A stretch of DNA of 64,000 nucleotides, from the NCBI GenBank assembly GCA_018266835.1, contig JAFDZP010000003.1, forward strand, positions 228,824 through 292,823, written 5' to 3'. This document shows, piece after piece, positions 20,282 through 31,384 of this stretch (position 1 is its first letter; each line of letters starts with the position of its first letter). The notes beneath the pieces are model-generated. The model did no database searches. It saw only the letters and a program-made list of their open reading frames with translations, and was not told the DNA's origin. The translations under genes were made by a program, and so were the position numbers. Source of the stretch: Bacteroidota bacterium. Lineage in GTDB: Bacteria; Bacteroidota; Ignavibacteria; Tepidaquicellales; Tepidaquicellaceae.

Positions 20282-20893
20282 CTAAAATTTTACTAATGGA
20301 AAGTGAAATCTTGTATTGATGCTGAATGTTGAATAAGATTTCGAATAAGAATATTTACCGTAGATATCAAAGATATAAAGCGTAAATCCTAATCCCCCTC
20401 CGTAAGCAATCTGACTCTCACTAAGCACTAACCCCGGTATCTGAGTTGTTTCGGGTGCTATTGTAGAAGTTCCTTTAATATATTTAACTTCAAGCGTTGC
20501 GAAAGGTATCGTGAAACTTGTTTTAAGATATTTTGAAAGTATTATATCTATACTCCCCCCAAAAGCAAAAGTTTTCGTATCGAATGTTGTTAAGAGATTT
20601 GTGGTCATAAATTCATCATTGCCATGGTGCTTAGCAACTTCAAGCAAAGCGCCAAAAACAAACGGGTAAGTTTTTTTTGATGAATACTCAAGCCTTACTC
20701 CAAACTGAGCGGCGATTTTATTTGTCTCTGCAAACTTTCCGGTAGGGTATACAGCGGAAAGTGTTGGAGATATAAATATTCCGCCCGGATTTGCAGTCCC
20801 TTTTTTTACAGGTGTGAATGAAGAATCACTTTGGGCAAACAATAATACAGGGAAAATGCACAGAAATATTATGATAAAAGATTTCAGTTTCAT
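20282..20893 (-). CDS. Outer-membrane beta-barrel protein of unknown function
   Basis: The 203-residue protein has a signal peptide (cleavage near LLFAQS), about eight amphipathic strands, and ends in a barrel-like SINTRFHFPLVKF. It resembles small porin-like Bacteroidota proteins, but I do not recognise a named family. It is the last gene of a minus-strand run and converges on the glycosyltransferase gene with only 4 bp between the stops, so no room remains for a separate terminator. Confidence 0.6.
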   Translation of the reverse strand: MKLKSFIIIFLCIFPVLLFAQSDSSFTPVKKGTANPGGIFISPTLSAVYPTGKFAETNKIAAQFGVRLEYSSKKTYPFVFGALLEVAKHHGNDEFMTTNLLTTFDTKTFAFGGSIDIILSKYLKTSFTIPFATLEVKYIKGTSTIAPETTQIPGLVLSESQIAYGGGLGFTLYIFDIYGKYSYSKSYSTFSINTRFHFPLVKF

Positions 20894-20907: not shown

Positions 20908-21810
20908 TTAAGAGCGTAGATATTTCTTCATCAGTTTTTCTAAATTAATTTTATCTTTCTTACTTATACTACTTTTTTGCTCAGCAAGTTCTGCTGCAAT
21001 TATACCAAAATTAAGGTACAAATTGGTAAGTGTCTTATCTACTTTTATAAGCTCTTTTATGTGTTTTTCTATAATAGTAACATCATTTCTATCTATGGGA
21101 CCTGTAAGAGATTTTACGACTCCCTGCCTGTTAATATTTTCAAGCGTATTTTTTATTATTGGTTCGTAAATTTTATATGTTTCTTTTTCATCACCGCCAA
21201 TTTGTTTTATTATTTTCGACGCAGCATAAATTAATCCGATTAAGTAATTTGAAGTTACAACTGAAGCAACGTGATATAAATACTTATCTGTGTTTTTTAC
21301 AATAATGAAATTTGATTTCAAATCAGCCGCAATCAGTTTACAATATTCAGAAGCAATCCTTCCGCCTTCGATTCCGAAGTAAATATTTTCAACAAGAGAG
21401 CTGTTCTTTGTAACTTCACTGAATGTCTGTATCGGATGAAATGAACCACAGTTTGTTTTTGCGACCTTCAACCTGTAAAAAATATCAGATGACAGAGAGC
21501 CTGAAATATGAATAAATAATTTATTCTTTAAATCTATTTTATGATTTTTAATTTCATCAACTACAGATTCTATTTTAGAGTCCTGAGTCATTATAAAAAC
21601 AACATCTGCACCATCCAGAAATTCTGAATTAACTTCTGCTGAGCATTGTATCTTATTTTTCTTTAAATCTTTTGCAAAACTCTTTTGTTTCGTTAAATTT
21701 CTTTCACTTACAAAATTTATTGAATATTTTTTCTTAATAAACTCATAAACAAAAGAAGAACCGACCTTGCCAGCGCCTATTATATATATTTTTCTCTTTT
21801 TAAAATTCAT
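20908..21810 (-). CDS. Rossmann-like and DUF2520 domain protein
   Basis: About 300 residues from the ATG at 21810; a TTG at 21831 is in frame but would overlap dtd by 11 nt. It begins NFKKRKIYIIGAGKVGSSF, an NAD(P)-binding Rossmann motif, followed by ADVVFIMTQDSKI and HISGSLSSD. The C-terminal half (SFHPIQTFSE, then YHVASVVTSNYLIGL) is the DUF2520 helical domain. The fold resembles ketopantoate reductase and pyrroline-5-carboxylate reductase, and the substrate is unknown. It is next to dtd and prmC in one minus-strand operon. Confidence 0.85.
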   Translation of the reverse strand: MNFKKRKIYIIGAGKVGSSFVYEFIKKKYSINFVSERNLTKQKSFAKDLKKNKIQCSAEVNSEFLDGADVVFIMTQDSKIESVVDEIKNHKIDLKNKLFIHISGSLSSDIFYRLKVAKTNCGSFHPIQTFSEVTKNSSLVENIYFGIEGGRIASEYCKLIAADLKSNFIIVKNTDKYLYHVASVVTSNYLIGLIYAASKIIKQIGGDEKETYKIYEPIIKNTLENINRQGVVKSLTGPIDRNDVTIIEKHIKELIKVDKTLTNLYLNFGIIAAELAEQKSSISKKDKINLEKLMKKYLRS

Positions 21811-21820
21811 AATCTTACAT

Positions 21821-22267
21821 TCATCTTTCAAGAATAATGGTTACAGGTCCGTCGTTCAATAAATCAACTTTCATATCAGCAGCAAATACTCCTGATTTTA
21901 TTTTATCCGCTTCATACATGTTTTTCATTTCATCAATCATTAACTCATAAAGTTCGTTTGCTCTTTCCGGTTTTTCCGCTAAAACAAAACTTGGTCTGTT
22001 TCCGCTTTTGCCGTTATCAGCGCAAAGTGTAAACTGAGATATAACCACTATCTCTCCCGAAATATCTTTAACGCTTAAGTTCATCTTTCCCTGTTCATCT
22101 GAAAAAATCCTTAAGTCAACAATTTTTTTTGAGAGATATTTTATCTGCTCTTCGTTATCCCCCGTTTTCACACCCAGAAGGATTAGCAACCCTTTGCCGA
22201 TTTCACTGTGCAACTTCCCGTCTATTGTAACAGAAGTCTTTGTTACACGCTGAATAACTGCAATCAT
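21821..22267 (-). CDS. dtd: D-aminoacyl-tRNA deacylase
   Basis: This 148-residue protein has both DTD hallmark motifs: SQFTL (77-81) and the Gly-cisPro region NDGPVT (138-143). It removes D-amino acids and glycine mischarged to tRNA. Residue 82 is Cys where many homologues have Tyr or another residue. The ATG overlaps the stop of prmC by 4 nt (22264-22267), which indicates tight operon coupling. Confidence 0.96.
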
Positions 22268-23145
22268 TTGCTTACCTCTAAAACTCTGTCATTATCGCTG
22301 TAATCTTTATAAAAAGTTGAGTTTATTCCTGAAAATTCTTGTAATAATTTTTCAAGATTTGCCTTCTGATTATATGCAATTTCAAAGAACAATTTTCCCG
22401 TTATAACAGGATTTGTATAAAGTTCTATAATCTTTCTATAAAAACTTAATCCGTCTTTATAATCTGTAAGCGAAATTGTCGGTTCGTATTTATTAACTTC
22501 TTCATTCAAACCTTCAAATTCAGTGTAAGGAATGTAAGGGGGATTCGAAACAATATAATCTATATCCTTATTAAAATTATCAATATCAAAAATATCTTTT
22601 TCTACAAATGAAATTTTATCTTTACTGCCTTCAAGCTTATCAAGGTTGTATTCAGCAACTTTTAAGGCATCCTTTGATATATCTATTGCAACTATGTTAT
22701 AGCTCAGACCCAGCTCATCAAGTTTTTTCCCAATAGCTATTGATATACATCCCGAACCGGCACCTATTTCAAGTATGTTTATATTGTCTTTATTACTTTT
22801 TTTCATATCATCAAGCACCTTTTCTACAAGTATCTCAGTTTCCTGCCGTGGAATCAGAACATGTTCATTTACTTTAAATCTGTATCCGTAAAAATATGCA
22901 TGGCCTGTTATGTATTGAAGAGGCTCATGATTCAATCTTCTTTTAAACCATTCCCTATATAACTCCAGTTCATTTTTTGTTAGAGGTTTCTCAAAATCCA
23001 GATATAGTCTTACCCTGTCACAATCAAGCACCTCACATAACATCAGCTCAACATTCAGCCTCGGGTTTGTTATATTCTTTTTTGCAAGAAGCTCAGTTGA
23101 AGATTTAATTATATCGAGAACCGTCGGATTAGAAATTTTTTCCAT
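22264..23145 (-). CDS. prmC: Release factor glutamine methyltransferase PrmC
   Basis: The 293-residue protein has an N-terminal helical domain, LIPRQETE (97-104), the SAM-binding [12 protein letters not shown] (126-137) and the catalytic NPPYIPY (201-207). It methylates the GGQ glutamine of release factors RF1 and RF2. It starts 2 bp after the amidohydrolase-like gene ends and overlaps dtd by 4 nt, so it lies mid-operon. No release-factor gene (prfA) is adjacent here. Confidence 0.95.
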
Positions 23146-23147
23146 CT

Positions 23148-24821
23148 TTACTTTGAAGCATTTTTAGAATCATAAACAACCTTACCATTTGTAATAGTCA
23201 TTAAAACTTTTGTTTCTAAAAGTTTTTTTGGATCGGATGTAAAAATATCATTTGAGATTACAACCATATCACAAAATTTATCTTTCTCAATGCTTCCTTT
23301 TATTCCCTCTTCAAATGAAGAATATGCGGCATATATGGTATAAGATTTTAACGCTTCCAGAATTGTTAACTTCTGGTCTTGTCCCGGTAAATTTATAACA
23401 GTATCTGCCCACTGACGGGATGTTAAATAATACATCTGAATAAATGGATTTATCTGGTTGAAAGGAAATTCAGAGCCCGTCAAAATGAATCCCGATGATT
23501 TTAAAATCGAATTCCACAATCCGGCCTTTTTACTGACTTCAGGATTTATTAACTCGGGAATCAAAGGCATATCAGTCAAATCTTTTTCAGGATTTACACT
23601 TGCCAATACTTTTAAATCCTTTAAGCGATTTATATCTGACTGGTCAGTAAACTCAACCGAACTCAAAATTGTCCTGTGGTCTTTCGGATTTTTTTCTTTA
23701 ATAACTTTTTCAATTGTATTCAAAGCTCCGTTGAATGCCCTGTCACCAACAGTCTTTACCGAGAACTGAAAATTTTTATCAATAGCTTGTTTAAAAACTT
23801 TCTCAATTTCAAATTCATCGCTATACGGAATTTTTCTCTTCGGCTCTTCTTTGTAATCATCTTTCATAGCAGCATCCTGAATTTCAAATGCTCCGTCGTA
23901 ATCAAGGCACACTGAGCGGACAGTGAGTTTATCTTTATAATTTATTTCCGCTCCTTTTTTAAGATAGTCTTCAAATAATTTATCATTTCCCGTTAGCACT
24001 GCATACATTCTTATTGGAAAACTTCCTTTATCTATGAGTTCTTTAAAAACTTCAATACCGCCTTCTGCAATATTTCTGTCATGAACTTCCGTGATACCGT
24101 ATTTCAGAAGCTCCTTTGCTCCTCTCTCAATCTGAATTGCCATTTCTTCATGGGAAGTCTCAGGCAGCTTATCTTTTATTAACTGCTGTGCATCATCAAT
24201 AAAAATACCTGTAAGCTCACCTTTCTCATCTTTTTCAATTTCACCTTCACCAGGACTTTGAGTGTTTTTATCTATACCAACTGAGTTTAATAATTTTGAG
24301 TTTACCCAGACTATATTGCCGAGATAATTTATAAGATAAACATTGTTATTCGGTGCAACTTCATCAAGTACAGATTTATTTATCTTTAAAAAATCCTCTT
24401 CAGAAAAATTAACTTCGTTCCATCCGTAACCGCCAATCCATTCACCGGGTTTTACACTTTTAACTTTATCTGCTAAAATTTTCTTAACATCATTTAAATT
24501 TTTAGCTGAAGTAAGGTTAATAAAGTTCAGATTCTCAGAAAAATCTACAAGTGAACCATTAGCATCAATTAGCCCGGGAATAACAACTGCTCCTTTCAAA
24601 TCCACTGCATTATCATTTCCATACTTATCAGTTATTGCTTTAGTAGTTCCTGTTTCGATTATCTTACCTTCCTTTACGGCAACGGCTTCAACAATGGTAT
24701 TGTTGTTATCCATTGTGTAAATTTTCCCGTTAATAAATACACTATCCGGCTTTTTAGAACATGAGGATAAAGTCAGAATAAATAATAATACAACCGCTAT
24801 AAAAATATTTTTTTTCAGCAT
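23148..24821 (-). CDS. Amidohydrolase-like lipoprotein (YtcJ type) without metal ligands
   Basis: The 557-residue protein has a lipobox LSSC (Cys21) and an overall YtcJ/amidohydrolase 3 layout (NGKIYTMD, PGLIDA, GYGWNE, VWVNSKLL, TGIFIDDAQQL, VGDRAF, ILTGSEFP). Every expected metal or catalytic residue I could place is changed: the HxH after PGLID is Asn88-Gly-Ser90, the substrate-region His is Asn169, VHA is Val-Lys356-Thr, the following EH is Glu390-Phe391, and the final GSD is GSE451. Only three His remain in the protein. The reading frame is intact, so it looks like a maintained non-enzymatic derivative. It heads the prmC-dtd-DUF2520 operon. Confidence 0.85.
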   Translation of the reverse strand: MLKKNIFIAVVLLFILTLSSCSKKPDSVFINGKIYTMDNNNTIVEAVAVKEGKIIETGTTKAITDKYGNDNAVDLKGAVVIPGLIDANGSLVDFSENLNFINLTSAKNLNDVKKILADKVKSVKPGEWIGGYGWNEVNFSEEDFLKINKSVLDEVAPNNNVYLINYLGNIVWVNSKLLNSVGIDKNTQSPGEGEIEKDEKGELTGIFIDDAQQLIKDKLPETSHEEMAIQIERGAKELLKYGITEVHDRNIAEGGIEVFKELIDKGSFPIRMYAVLTGNDKLFEDYLKKGAEINYKDKLTVRSVCLDYDGAFEIQDAAMKDDYKEEPKRKIPYSDEFEIEKVFKQAIDKNFQFSVKTVGDRAFNGALNTIEKVIKEKNPKDHRTILSSVEFTDQSDINRLKDLKVLASVNPEKDLTDMPLIPELINPEVSKKAGLWNSILKSSGFILTGSEFPFNQINPFIQMYYLTSRQWADTVINLPGQDQKLTILEALKSYTIYAAYSSFEEGIKGSIEKDKFCDMVVISNDIFTSDPKKLLETKVLMTITNGKVVYDSKNASK

Positions 24822-24919: not shown

Positions 24920-26695
24920 TTATTGATAAAATGTAACTGTAAAACAACTTCCGCCTTCAGGCAAATTTTGATGTGTAATATCTCCATTCAATAGTTTAAC
25001 AAGTTTCTCAACAATTGATAAACCAAGACCTGTGGATGTCTCACCTCCGGTTGGTTTATTTGAAAGATGAGAGAACTTTTTAAATAACGATGGCAGTTCT
25101 TCTTCTTTTACTCCCGGACCATTATCTATAAACTGTACAACAATATTATTTTCATCATTAAAAGTTTTTATAACAATAGAACCTTCTAAAGGAGAATATT
25201 TAATAGCATTAGAAAGTAGATTTTCTAATATTTCTTTTAAAACATTCTCATCAGCTTTAATTCCTGAATCCGATAAATTATTTTCAAATATTAGTTTCTG
25301 ATTTTTTCTTTCGATACTGTTCTCAAATTCTCTTATCGTCAAGTTTATTACATCCGTAATATCAAGCTCTTTAAAATTTAGTTTTAATTTTCCGTTTTCA
25401 ATATTATTGAGATTAAGAAGATTGTCTATAATTTCCTGCATTCGTTTTGAAGAATGCTCTACTTTATTTAATCTTTGAGTAAGGACAGTTTCAGATATAC
25501 TGCCTGCATTTCTTTTGATGGATGAAACTGATAGAACTATATTTGCAAGAGGATTTTTCAAATCGTGCGCAACAATTTCAAGGAAGTCGCTCCTCTCCTG
25601 ATTTAATTCTTTCAATTTTTCGTTTGCCTCAGCAAGTTCTATATTTCTTAACCTTTCAATTTCTGCCTGCTTCTGTGTTGTTTCAACTTTGTGAATTATC
25701 TCTAATGATTTAATTCTCTCAGCTATTTTTTCGTTCAGTTCATTTGTTTTAAGTTCGTCATGTATTTTATAGTTTTCCAGAGCTGCCTGATAATCCCCCC
25801 TCAGTTCATAAGCTTTTGAATAAAGCAGATAAAATTCAGTAGTCATCCGCACAGCATTAATTTGATTCACATATTTCATTCCGTCATTTAATGCTTCCAA
25901 GGCTTTATCAGCTTCATTTATTTTTAAGTATGTCCCGGCAATATGAGCATAAGTTTCACTAAGCATCAACGAATTATTTAGCTTCAGATATATAGATAGA
26001 ACTTTTTGAAATATTTTCAATGCCTCATCATACTGTCCTGTTTCTTTTTTTATCAAGCCGAGAATACAGTATGAGAACGCAAGCGAGCCTTTATCTTCAA
26101 AAGAACTTTTTATTTTTATTGCTTTAAGAATATATACATTTGCCTTTTCATAATTTTTTAATGCAACTTCCAGAGAGGCAAGATTTGTATAACATAAGCC
26201 CAGACTTTTGTTTTCATCCAGCTTCTTTTTTATCTCCAACGATTGAAGATAATATTTTTTTGAACTCTCAAATTCATTCATAGAATAATAACAGCCGCCA
26301 ATATTATTCAATACTTTTGATTTTATCGCATCCTCACCTATTTCTTCCGCAAGATTCAAACTTTGAAGATGGCATTGCAGCGCTTTTGGATAATCGCCGA
26401 TAAAACTATAGCATTGTCCCAGCAGACTAAGTGTGTTTGCCTGCATTTCTTTATCATTTAAAGATTGAAATAGTATTAAAGACAGCTCAAGATTTTCAAT
26501 GCTAATTGCATAATTACCTAATGCAATGTTTATGCTGCCTAAATTTCTTAATGATAATGCTTCACCTTTAATGTAATGAGAGTCGTGTGATAGTTGAGCT
26601 GCTTTTTCAAGCATAGATTGGGCTTTTTCGGGAGAATTGCTTCGCTCTTGTGAAGCTTTTTCTATGAGCTCATCAATATTTTGGGACAGGGGCAA
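24920..26695 (-). CDS. Soluble TPR-containing sensor histidine kinase
   Basis: The 591-residue protein has no membrane segment. Residues about 20-315 are consecutive TPR units (for example SKVLNNIGGCYYSMNEFESS and SLAFSYCILGLIKKETGQYD). A coiled coil covers about 320-370. The HisKA H-box LEIVAHDLKNPLAN has His377, and the HATPase domain has N box LENLLSNAIKYSP, DNGPGV and GLGLSIV. It should autophosphorylate and pass phosphate to a receiver, with the TPRs probably sensing a partner. The start is TTG at 26695, because in-frame TAA codons sit directly upstream. It is divergent from a receiver-like protein across a tRNA gene. Confidence 0.88.
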   Translation of the reverse strand: MPLSQNIDELIEKASQERSNSPEKAQSMLEKAAQLSHDSHYIKGEALSLRNLGSINIALGNYAISIENLELSLILFQSLNDKEMQANTLSLLGQCYSFIGDYPKALQCHLQSLNLAEEIGEDAIKSKVLNNIGGCYYSMNEFESSKKYYLQSLEIKKKLDENKSLGLCYTNLASLEVALKNYEKANVYILKAIKIKSSFEDKGSLAFSYCILGLIKKETGQYDEALKIFQKVLSIYLKLNNSLMLSETYAHIAGTYLKINEADKALEALNDGMKYVNQINAVRMTTEFYLLYSKAYELRGDYQAALENYKIHDELKTNELNEKIAERIKSLEIIHKVETTQKQAEIERLRNIELAEANEKLKELNQERSDFLEIVAHDLKNPLANIVLSVSSIKRNAGSISETVLTQRLNKVEHSSKRMQEIIDNLLNLNNIENGKLKLNFKELDITDVINLTIREFENSIERKNQKLIFENNLSDSGIKADENVLKEILENLLSNAIKYSPLEGSIVIKTFNDENNIVVQFIDNGPGVKEEELPSLFKKFSHLSNKPTGGETSTGLGLSIVEKLVKLLNGDITHQNLPEGGSCFTVTFYQ

Positions 26696-26965: not shown

Positions 26966-29767
26966 TTGAAAATACTTGCATTAAGCCGTGATATATCCTT
27001 ACTCAATATAGTTGACTATATTTTGTATAAGGATTATAAAATTATCAAATCAACTTCATTTGAAAATCTTGATGCAGATATAAGCAGCTTTGATTTGATA
27101 GTAATCGATTTGCCATATTGGGAAGAAAGTCCGAACATAAAAAAAGTTCTAAATGGTATAAACTTACCTATAATAATTCTCACTGAGGATAAATCCGCTG
27201 CCGTACTTTCTAATCTTAAAAATGAATACAATCTTAGAACCGTTCTTAAAGAACCGCTAAGTAAAAAAGAACTTAAGGAAACAGTTAAAGAATTATCAAA
27301 GAAGAAAAAAAATAAAAAAGATAAGGATAGAAGTTTTGAAACAAGCGAAGTATATATTTCTTCACCGATAGAAAGTTTAGTTAATAATAATGAAGTCGTT
27401 TTTTTCAGAATTACTGACTTGCAGGAAAAAAGAATTGAGTATATTTCAGATAACTATAAAAAGGTTTTCAATATAAATCATAGCCTTGGTAATCTGAAAG
27501 AATTTGCAGAGGACCATGAAATACCGTTCATATCAAATTCATCTCCGGAGTATTCAACCGTATATAAAATAAAAAATGAGTCGCAGTTCATAGTTTTAAA
27601 AGAATCCGGTAAAGGTATCTTTGATGCCAACAAATATTTGGTGAATGTAGAAGGCACGATTATAAATTATACTGATGAATACATAAAGCAAAGCTTGGTT
27701 AAATTTGTTGGTTCAGTTTTTAATATTGAAAATTTTTCCCTAGATACATCTGAATTTATCAGAAAAATAGTTCATGAGTTTTCACTTAATATTCCAAAAG
27801 ACTTAATACAGCTTAGCATAACATTTTCCGGTAAAGATTATTTTACTAATGATTTTATTCCTACTGACTTTCTTATATCAAGCGACATTATCTCATCAGA
27901 TAAAAAGCAGGGAGAAGTATTATTATTCTCATTGAACAACAATTATGATGACACATTAAAAGAGTTTTCAAAAATTCTTGCCGATGTTATACTTATTCAT
28001 TCTGAATCTGAGCAGTTAAATTCAAAGTACTCAACCGAAACAAGTGAGCTTAAACAGGAATTGAATTTAATAACAAACCGGCTTACACAGGCAGAGGCCG
28101 CATTCCATGATAAAGCAAAGTCATTCGATAATCTGAATGAACTGTTCAATTCTGCTATGAAGGATTTTAAAGTAATATCTTCTAAATTTAGCAGAACAGC
28201 AATAATATTTGAAACAAATGCTGAGGGTAAGTTCTTATCTGCAAATGAAAATTACTACAGGGCAGTTGCAAAAGATAAATCATCATTAGCCGGAAAGTTT
28301 TTTGATGAAATATTTGATAATTCAAACTGGCAGAATTTTCAGTTTGAATTTTTCAACAACGCTAATCAGGAAGTGACTTTAAAGCAGAAGAATAAAGAAG
28401 GACGCGCATCTTATTTCAGTTTTCATATTTCAAGAGAAGAAACAGATAACGGTTACAAATTCGTTTTCTATGGCAAAGATAAAACTGAAGCGAAATCTCT
28501 CGAAATAGAATTAGGCAAGCAAATTAGCGAGTATAATTCAAAAGTCACCGAATTAATCGATGCAAAGAAAGCGAATGAGTTACTCTGGGAAGAGATTAAC
28601 ACTTTAAAAGAAGAGCTGAAGGAAAAAGATGAAACTATAAAAAAGCAGGAGAAGAAGTTATTAAAAGTTCAGGAGCAAATTGAAACTAAACCTGAAATTC
28701 CTGTTACACCTTCCTTTTCAAAAGATGAATATAAACTTGACAGTAAAGAAGCAGAGGAGATTTTTAAGGAAGATGTTGAACAAAAAATAGAAGAAGCAAA
28801 AGAAGAAATTACTGCGACACAAGACGAGAATGAAGCTATCTTTAAAAATTTAAGAGGAATTGATTTTAAGATAGGACTTGCAAATGCATACGATAACATC
28901 GATACTTACAATGAAATACTTGTAAATTTTGAAAACGACTATGCAGATTTTGTTAAAGATGTAAAAGGAATGTATCTGGTTAATGATAACGAATATATAA
29001 AATCGCGCCTGCTAACTTTATCAGAAGAGTCTAAGTACATCGGTGCTGAAGATTTGGAAAAATCAGCGCAGCTTTTCCATGATAAACTTGCTGATAACAA
29101 AATCAACAATTTTGATTTTGAGCTATCTGTATTGGGAGTACATTTAAACTTTACTCTCGAATCAATTAGAAAATATAAAGATGAATATTCTTTGCTTGAA
29201 CCGAAGCCAAAAGAAGATGTTATTACGCATGAAGATGTTGAATCCAAAGCAGAAGTGTTTGATGTAATTCAGGAAAAAGAATTCACAATTTCCCTTGCAC
29301 CGGAGAAAACTGAGGAATTTAAAGAAAGATCCGAAGAAGAATCCAAAACAGAATTTAATGAAGAGTTAATAACAGAGTCTTTTGAAACTCAAACTGATAT
29401 CGATGTCGAACAAATAGCAGAAGAAAATAAGTTAGTAGATGAAATTCATCAGGAAGTACTAGTTCAGGAGTTAAATAATAATGAACCTGAAATTAAGGAT
29501 GATGGAAATATTCAAGAAAGTACTGAGGAAAAAGCTAACGATAACAAAGAAGAAACTGTTGCAAGTCCTTTTGTAATTCATGTTAATGATTTACAAAAAT
29601 CAATTGAGAACTCAGAAGACACATCTATTTTAAAAGAAAAACTTTTCAAGCTGAAATTCGAAAACAGTGACTTCAATAAAATTGAAAAGCTTGAAGAACT
29701 TGAATCATGTATTGAAAGCGGAAATCACAGCAGCGCTATTTCTATATTAAACGAATTAAAATCTTAA
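26966..29767 (+). CDS. Receiver-PAS-coiled-coil-Hpt-like signalling protein
   Basis: The 933-residue protein starts at TTG 26966. Residues 1-110 resemble a receiver domain (ILALSRD, FDLIVIDLP with the acceptor-position Asp, VLKEPLS with the conserved Lys), though the acidic pair is weak. A PAS-like segment (about 130-210, VVFFRITDLQEKRIEYIS) and an unclear domain follow. Next come a coiled coil, a second PAS (about 412-515), and another long coiled coil (about 520-575). Residues about 620-740 look like an Hpt bundle (LRGIDFKIGLANAY, LTLSEESKYIGAED), but the phosphoacceptor His position is Leu. A very acidic linker precedes the last 50 residues. Divergent from the TPR kinase, it may be its partner (inference). 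Confidence 0.6.
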   Translation: MKILALSRDISLLNIVDYILYKDYKIIKSTSFENLDADISSFDLIVIDLPYWEESPNIKKVLNGINLPIIILTEDKSAAVLSNLKNEYNLRTVLKEPLSKKELKETVKELSKKKKNKKDKDRSFETSEVYISSPIESLVNNNEVVFFRITDLQEKRIEYISDNYKKVFNINHSLGNLKEFAEDHEIPFISNSSPEYSTVYKIKNESQFIVLKESGKGIFDANKYLVNVEGTIINYTDEYIKQSLVKFVGSVFNIENFSLDTSEFIRKIVHEFSLNIPKDLIQLSITFSGKDYFTNDFIPTDFLISSDIISSDKKQGEVLLFSLNNNYDDTLKEFSKILADVILIHSESEQLNSKYSTETSELKQELNLITNRLTQAEAAFHDKAKSFDNLNELFNSAMKDFKVISSKFSRTAIIFETNAEGKFLSANENYYRAVAKDKSSLAGKFFDEIFDNSNWQNFQFEFFNNANQEVTLKQKNKEGRASYFSFHISREETDNGYKFVFYGKDKTEAKSLEIELGKQISEYNSKVTELIDAKKANELLWEEINTLKEELKEKDETIKKQEKKLLKVQEQIETKPEIPVTPSFSKDEYKLDSKEAEEIFKEDVEQKIEEAKEEITATQDENEAIFKNLRGIDFKIGLANAYDNIDTYNEILVNFENDYADFVKDVKGMYLVNDNEYIKSRLLTLSEESKYIGAEDLEKSAQLFHDKLADNKINNFDFELSVLGVHLNFTLESIRKYKDEYSLLEPKPKEDVITHEDVESKAEVFDVIQEKEFTISLAPEKTEEFKERSEEESKTEFNEELITESFETQTDIDVEQIAEENKLVDEIHQEVLVQELNNNEPEIKDDGNIQESTEEKANDNKEETVASPFVIHVNDLQKSIENSEDTSILKEKLFKLKFENSDFNKIEKLEELESCIESGNHSSAISILNELKS

Positions 29768-29770
29768 TTA

Positions 29771-31273
29771 TTACTCTGCATTTTCCGGTAAGCCGGGCTT
29801 TACAAAAATTACTTTTTCTTTTTCAAGAATTACTGTCCCCTCTCTGAATCCTTTTTTCTTTTTAACATATTTGCGTTCAGTATAGGCGACAGGCACATTA
29901 CCGCCGTTACGCGCCTTACTGTAATATGCTGCAATAGATGCAGCGGATAAAATGTATTTCTTATCGATTTCTTTTTTTTGTCCTGTTTTAAGTACAGTAT
30001 GTGAGCCGCTGAAACCGCGGACGTGAAACCATAAATCATTCTGAGCTGAGTATTTCATTGTAAGCAAATCATTCGATGCACTATCCTTTCCTACCCACAC
30101 TTCAAGATCATCTGCGACTTTAAATTTTCTGAACTTATTCGTTTCATCATCCCTTATTTTTTCTTCTTTCACTGCTAATTTTCTTAAATTTTTATAATCT
30201 TCGTTATTTTTTATTGATTCAATTTCTTCTTCTATTTTTTTCTTCTGATTCTCTGCATCTGCTAGTTTCTTTTCTATTAATTCAACTGAACCCTTTAACT
30301 TTTTATATTTCTCAAAATAATTTTTCGCATTTTCCTGTGGAGATAAAGTTTCTTTCAGCTTAATTGAAATTATTTTTTCTTCATCTTCTGTTTCAAATAT
30401 AATATCGCCTTTTTTTATTTTCCATATGTTCTCCATAATTTTATCGCCGTAAAGTTTGTACTTCTGTGATTCATTTACGTTTGCAAGCTGTGTTTTAAAA
30501 CTCAGGATACTGAGTTCGGCATGTTTTAATTTTTTACTAAGTCCGCTTAAAATTTCCTGCTTCGCCTCATTAAAATTCTTTTCCTTATTTCTGTATTTAA
30601 TCCAGTTGAGAAGCAGCTCATTTATATTTTTACATACTATCTTTTCATATTCAGGTTTATCTGTCACTTCAAAAAAAGAAGCAAATATTTTTTCTCCTGC
30701 CCTGTAAAACAGATATTGAGGAGTCGAATAAATTTCCTTTAGCTTCTGAATATCCGGTACAATTGTAAATGCATCTTTCCCGAACTTACTCAGCTCTTTT
30801 TTCAAAACATCGGTCTCTTCTCTTTTATCAGATAAAATTTCGTTTATTGATTTTTCTGAATTATCTTTACTATCCTTATATGAATTAATTACTGCTCCAT
30901 TCTGAACATAAAAGCAATTCTGCTTATGATTTACAAAATTAAAAAGTAAGCATGTGCTGTCATCAAAAAAAATACTGATAAGCCTGTCATCATTAACTAA
31001 GCTGACATAAGAAATATTCTTACCTGTGCACTCTTCCATAATCAAAGCAATATTTTTTGAAGGAAGATAAAAATTATCGCGCTTTACTAAATAAGTGAAA
31101 TCATTTTCAATGCTGTATTCAAGCATTATCTGCTTATCTTCCTTGACGCATTCAATGTGAAGTTTATTCCTCTCGAATGTATTTATACTTTGAATTGTAA
31201 ATCCTTTCAGATCACTGTTCAGATATTCCGACTGCTTTTCAAGTATATAAAAGTTATTTATCCGTGAAATCAT
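29771..31273 (-). CDS. NFACT/RqcH-like ribosome quality control protein
   Basis: About 500 residues from ATG 31273; a TTG three codons upstream is also possible. The N-terminal part is a divergent NFACT-N domain and the middle a long coiled coil (about 235-370). The C-terminal NFACT-R domain is clear: VGKDSASNDLLTMKYSAQND, DLWFHVRGFSGSHTVLK, and IAAYYSKARNGGNVPVAYTE. Family members bind stalled 60S/50S subunits with peptidyl-tRNA and add alanine tails in bacteria. The catalytic conservation of the N-terminal part is uncertain. The gene converges on the receiver-like gene with 3 bp between stops. Confidence 0.82.
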   Translation of the reverse strand: MISRINNFYILEKQSEYLNSDLKGFTIQSINTFERNKLHIECVKEDKQIMLEYSIENDFTYLVKRDNFYLPSKNIALIMEECTGKNISYVSLVNDDRLISIFFDDSTCLLFNFVNHKQNCFYVQNGAVINSYKDSKDNSEKSINEILSDKREETDVLKKELSKFGKDAFTIVPDIQKLKEIYSTPQYLFYRAGEKIFASFFEVTDKPEYEKIVCKNINELLLNWIKYRNKEKNFNEAKQEILSGLSKKLKHAELSILSFKTQLANVNESQKYKLYGDKIMENIWKIKKGDIIFETEDEEKIISIKLKETLSPQENAKNYFEKYKKLKGSVELIEKKLADAENQKKKIEEEIESIKNNEDYKNLRKLAVKEEKIRDDETNKFRKFKVADDLEVWVGKDSASNDLLTMKYSAQNDLWFHVRGFSGSHTVLKTGQKKEIDKKYILSAASIAAYYSKARNGGNVPVAYTERKYVKKKKGFREGTVILEKEKVIFVKPGLPENAE

Positions 31274-31384
31274 AGTAAACAATTTTGTCTAAATGCATAA
31301 TAATAACAATTCAAAAACTTTTTTGAATTGAAATTCTTAAAAACACTTAATAGTTTAGTATAATACTAATTTAACAAATCCCAA

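Follow-up and report, generated by a model that had tools for sequence, protein, structure and literature searches.

A lipid-anchored YtcJ-type amidohydrolase homologue that lost its metal site once, across a bacterial order, and probably persists as a binding protein

The window (that is, the whole stretch of 64,000 nucleotides that was analysed) encodes a lipoprotein of the YtcJ-type amidohydrolase family in which the catalytic metal site has been lost. The loss extends across the order and has a single origin, the Cys of the lipobox never varies, and the gene is under strong purifying selection in a fixed neighbourhood. The protein thus combines lost catalytic residues with long-term purifying selection, as is characteristic of pseudoenzymes, and the lipid-anchored pseudoenzyme proposed in the original prediction is strongly supported. 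On balance, we favour a metal-free pseudoenzyme that derives from a YtcJ-type enzyme dismantled once, that probably holds a Lys-carboxylate pair in the metals' place, and that probably has a binding role.

The gene is read from the minus strand as an uninterrupted frame of 557 codons, in agreement with the clean frame claimed initially; stops abound there on the plus strand. Its product matches the Pfam family Amidohydro_3 (PF07969) with an E-value of 6.7e-69 and 234 bits (cut-off 29.7) over positions 2-472 of the 472-position profile, which full-length match places it in the Amidohydro_3/YtcJ-like sequence family. When Pfam and NCBIfam were searched with the protein, general amidohydrolase models and weak partial matches were returned, and no family specific to the pseudo-amidohydrolase was found. 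The closest solved structures are 3igh and 3icj, both uncharacterised metal-dependent hydrolases (E 1.1e-20 for the sequence match to 3igh). Two further details of the original prediction were recovered, namely that the 557 residues include only three His (224, 247, and 382) and that the conserved Lys region reads VRSVCLDYDG (residues 301-310). The signal peptide terminates in the expected LSSC lipobox with Cys21. This Cys is present in 40 of 40 aligned orthologues and is preceded by a hydrophobic stretch in those with a complete N-terminus, as is typical of bacterial lipoproteins. Judged by these sequence features, the protein is presumably exported, lipid-anchored, and periplasm-facing. An AlphaFold model built from an alignment of four rows only (the window protein, L052, L053, and L054) reached a pLDDT of 38.6. 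The gene and its former catalytic positions are located in the window as follows:

23148..24821, minus strand: pseudo-amidohydrolase lipoprotein gene, 557 aa (open reading frame and translation, with the Amidohydro_3 match given above)
24759..24761, minus strand: lipobox Cys21 (LSSC)
24552..24560, minus strand: former HxH, now N88-G89-S90 (H88 and H90 in 30 of 30 active relatives)
24315..24317, minus strand: former auxiliary His, now N169 (role of the His from PMC13081902)
23907..23909, minus strand: former bridging Lys, now C305 (Lys in active relatives)
23754..23756, minus strand: former strand-5 His, now the clade-invariant K356 (Lys in 40 of 40 orthologues versus His in 30 of 30 active relatives)
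23658..23660, minus strand: former strand-6 His, now S388 (alignment with intact relatives)
23469..23471, minus strand: former strand-8 Asp, now E451 (alignment with intact relatives)

In the YtcJ-type metallo bile salt hydrolase BwBSH1, the predicted ligands of the two metals are H110, H112, the carboxylated K373, H441, H474, and D583; the alanine mutant of each single ligand is dead, and H196 is an auxiliary catalytic His (PMC13081902). To set the ligand columns, the protein was aligned with 30 intact homologues plus the PDB chains 3igh and 3icj; the correspondence to BwBSH1, whose sequence was itself not in the alignment, follows the order of the motifs. The HxH, carboxylated Lys, two His, and Asp of a YtcJ-type enzyme are replaced in the window protein by H88 to N, H90 to S, K305 to C, H356 to K, H388 to S, and D451 to E. 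It had been claimed that all ligands are replaced. This is true of five of the six (N88, S90, C305, K356, and S388), but the change to Glu451 is conservative, and most orthologues keep the Asp. The strand-6 His, which had been assigned to Phe391, is put by the alignment in column 388 (Ser). The predicted change at Asn169 is real, but the position is that of the auxiliary His of the VDGHA motif (H196 in BwBSH1), a catalytic residue and not a metal ligand.

Among the order's 44 genomes, 41 carry an orthologue, with all 19 genera represented, and 40 orthologues were aligned. In two of the remaining genomes (G031 and G041), the contig breaks off at a prmC fragment, just where the gene would be expected next, and the third (G037) has the locus unassembled; true absence of the gene from some genomes of the order was rejected on these grounds. 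The HxH is present in none of the 40 aligned orthologues, and the close orthologues with an intact HxH that would have contradicted the prediction were thus not encountered. Position 356 is Lys throughout. Position 88 is E, D, or N (E or D in 38 of 40), position 90 is S or N, position 305 is S, T, C, G, or E, and position 169 varies among N, S, T, D, and P within the clade. Position 451 is acidic in 32 orthologues (Asp in most) and Asn or Gly in eight, while E390 and R410 are each found in 36. Every orthologue carries an acidic residue at 88 and/or 451; the apparent compensation between the two positions is suggestive and statistically not strong, with about 0.4 double losses expected by chance. 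The full metal site is found in 30 of 30 nearest homologues outside the order, which belong to other families of the class. The pseudo clade forms one side of a single branch (SH-aLRT 100); its exact sister is left uncertain by the long branch of the outgroup, the paralogue L002 from the same genome. No match of comparable strength outside the order was found in samples of the class and phylum, and scans of viral contigs for further relatives yielded one partial relative or none.

The clade kept much of the enzyme's framework. Most pseudo-clade members retain 52 of the 87 columns that do not vary among active relatives, mainly structural Gly, Pro, and Asp residues and hydrophobic positions. 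None of the six invariant His columns is kept, the invariant Lys is also lost, and the substrate motifs GSR (313-315) and QxxH (410-413) have disappeared. The disappearance of the His and Lys columns alongside the retention of these 52 indicates that the loss was concentrated on the catalytic site. Eight new states, each switched once, are nearly fixed in the clade (R165N, R315Q, H356K, I358V, Q390E, V391F, Q410R, and A435L), and homology would place most of them at the mouth of the barrel. Several pocket residues that are conserved elsewhere have changed again within the window's genus (N88, N410, and S387), which makes one conserved ligand less likely.

By the NG86 method, dN/dS between close pseudoenzyme orthologues is 0.03-0.09 (0.12 for the distant pair L005/L010). 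In several pairs dS approaches saturation; where saturation is least (dS 0.6-0.9), the ratio is about 0.04-0.05. These values are generally lower than those of pairs of active relatives (0.07-0.19), and the neighbouring prmC gives 0.06-0.21 in pairs with measurable dS. The pseudoenzyme is therefore at least as constrained as working enzymes. Its protein evolves more slowly than the adjacent PrmC in most pairs, and at the same silent divergence its close orthologues differ less in protein than working homologues do. In the window's genus, the constraint is somewhat looser (dN/dS 0.09) and PrmC is the slower of the two. The conservation and dN/dS analysis that had been recommended thus found the site absent clade-wide and purifying selection strong, and the relaxed selection that would have told against the prediction is not seen. 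Recent decay was rejected by the clade-wide site loss, the presence in 41 of 44 genomes, and the low dN/dS. The probability that the protein is a recently decayed active YtcJ, or an artefact of sequencing or assembly, is negligible, given also that independent assemblies show open frames free of internal stops, two of them truncated where the contig ends; no evidence in its favour was found.

Only 2 bp separate the end of the gene from prmC, after which comes dtd, and this upholds the gene's predicted place at the head of a translation-quality operon. The neighbours in the window are the following:

22264..23145, minus strand: prmC, downstream neighbour (PrmC_N E 6.9e-22; conserved synteny)
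21821..22267, minus strand: dtd, D-aminoacyl-tRNA deacylase (Tyr_Deacylase E 3e-55; conserved synteny)
20908..21831, minus strand: Rossmann/DUF2520 protein, conserved cluster member (neighbourhood comparison)
20282..20893, minus strand: small exported protein of 203 aa, conserved cluster member (no Pfam match)

The gene order pseudoenzyme-prmC-dtd was observed in every genome of the order with readable flanks (in L037 and L008 the contig stops too early), and the genes for the DUF2520 and small exported proteins follow dtd wherever the flank reaches, with the exception of L038, where DUF2520 was undetected. In some relatives (four genomes of family f13 and one of family f17), an intact YtcJ gene precedes prmC-dtd and is read in the same direction. 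The simplest reading of this arrangement is that an ancestral active enzyme stood at the locus, which suggests its conversion in situ.

Directly upstream of the pseudoenzyme gene lies a TPR-histidine kinase gene (24920-26695, minus strand), which was detected at this place in the window's genus only. A 933-aa protein (26966-29767, plus strand) without a Pfam match, whose N-terminus resembles by eye a response-regulator receiver followed by a coiled coil, is flanked by this kinase and an NFACT-like gene, an arrangement repeated in L052. The NFACT-family protein (29771-31282, minus strand), near prmC and dtd, is conserved in that same-genus locus. Elsewhere in the genome, L002 (G000:C4:394516-396093) is the only full-length YtcJ paralogue found; its metal site is complete, and it has no evident signal peptide. 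Similar weak matches, at 25-30% identity, turn up in the majority of the order's genomes. L002 is unlikely to be a partner of the pseudoenzyme, since without a signal peptide it would reside in another compartment.

The ancestor of the pseudoenzyme would have been an exported YtcJ-type dinuclear metal amidohydrolase encoded beside prmC-dtd, most likely passed on by vertical descent, whose metal site would have been dismantled once, in the ancestor of the order. The lipid-anchored, periplasm-facing product would retain the amidohydrolase fold as a metal-free barrel. The strand-5 His was replaced by the invariant Lys356, whose most likely partner is an acidic residue at 88 and/or 451; such a pair is plausible given that at least one of the two positions is acidic in every orthologue. 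The putative salt bridge would take the structural place of the metals, and the old pocket, which most clade members line with E88, N165, Q315, K356, E390, and R410, would be reused, most likely for binding a small ligand or protein partner without hydrolysis. The most likely function is binding without catalysis, within or beside the former pocket; its main rivals are a protein scaffold and a new reaction that needs no metal. A point against the metal-free reading is that one metal might, in principle, be coordinated by Glu451 and Cys305.

The pseudoenzyme resembles YtcJ-type enzymes (BwBSH1, PDB 3ICJ/3IGH) in its whole-profile match, in the conservation of most structural Gly, Pro, and Asp residues, and in the intact homologues that relatives carry at the same prmC-dtd locus. 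It differs from them in lacking the HxH, the bridging Lys, the strand-5 and strand-6 His, and the auxiliary His169, in having lost the motifs DGALGSRGA and QPxHxTSD, and in its invariant Lys at strand 5. Pseudoenzymes of the amidohydrolase superfamily are already known. In bacteria, they include inactive (pseudo-) dihydroorotases that are associated with aspartate transcarbamoylase. These belong to another subfamily, are cytoplasmic, and act as scaffold for a known partner enzyme. The CRMPs (dihydropyrimidinase-related proteins) have lost Zn-ligand His and perform non-catalytic roles (PMC7325199). They are eukaryotic, cytosolic, and members of the dihydropyrimidinase branch, whereas the present protein is bacterial, exported, lipid-anchored, and of the YtcJ branch, and the losses are independent. 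No YtcJ-type pseudoenzyme is described in the literature searched, which covered few subscription papers, and with respect to that literature the YtcJ-branch case is new.

A wider formulation, in which the metals of a YtcJ-type barrel gave way to a lysine-carboxylate network and the exported protein, the product of an order-wide core gene, acquired a new role in catalysis or ligand sensing that needs no metal, is put forward tentatively. A repurposed, metal-independent enzyme, in which Lys356 with Asp309, Asp360, and Glu390 would constitute a novel active centre for some exported reaction, would be in keeping with the invariance of Lys356, with the eight positions that switched once and are now nearly fixed, and with selection as strong as on enzymes. 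We nevertheless consider it unlikely, as invariance is incomplete at the new polar positions other than Lys356 (E390 and R410), several of which have changed in the window's own genus, and D309 and D360, being equally invariant among active relatives, are uninformative on new chemistry.

Equally improbable is a non-catalytic subunit or scaffold whose surface interfaces, and not the old pocket, are under selection. Inactive dihydroorotase-ATCase complexes set one precedent in the superfamily. The CRMPs set another (PMC7325199), and it would fit a scaffold that the framework's glycines, prolines, and aspartates are kept and the catalytic residues are not. However, the invariance of Lys356 points to the pocket, no operon partner is apparent beyond prmC, dtd, DUF2520, and the small exported protein, and the paralogue L002, which keeps its metal site, would be in another compartment. 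Still less credence is given to a degenerate single-metal site (e.g., Glu451, Cys305, and Asp309) with some hydrolase activity. Some amidohydrolases do work with one metal, and the prevalence of acidic residues at 451 and 88 (32 and 38 of 40, respectively) would suit such a site. Yet in all 40 orthologues the second-metal His is Lys and the bridging Lys and HxH are lost, eight have Asn or Gly at 451, and in BwBSH1 the mutation of any one ligand abolishes activity (PMC13081902).

Automatic annotation normally labels PF07969 proteins as metal-dependent hydrolases, and here an order-wide core gene with this label cannot use the known chemistry. The locus presents a clean natural conversion of an enzyme into a pseudoenzyme, with intact homologues at the same place for comparison, and the role of the old metal pocket once a lysine replaces the metal thereby becomes directly testable.
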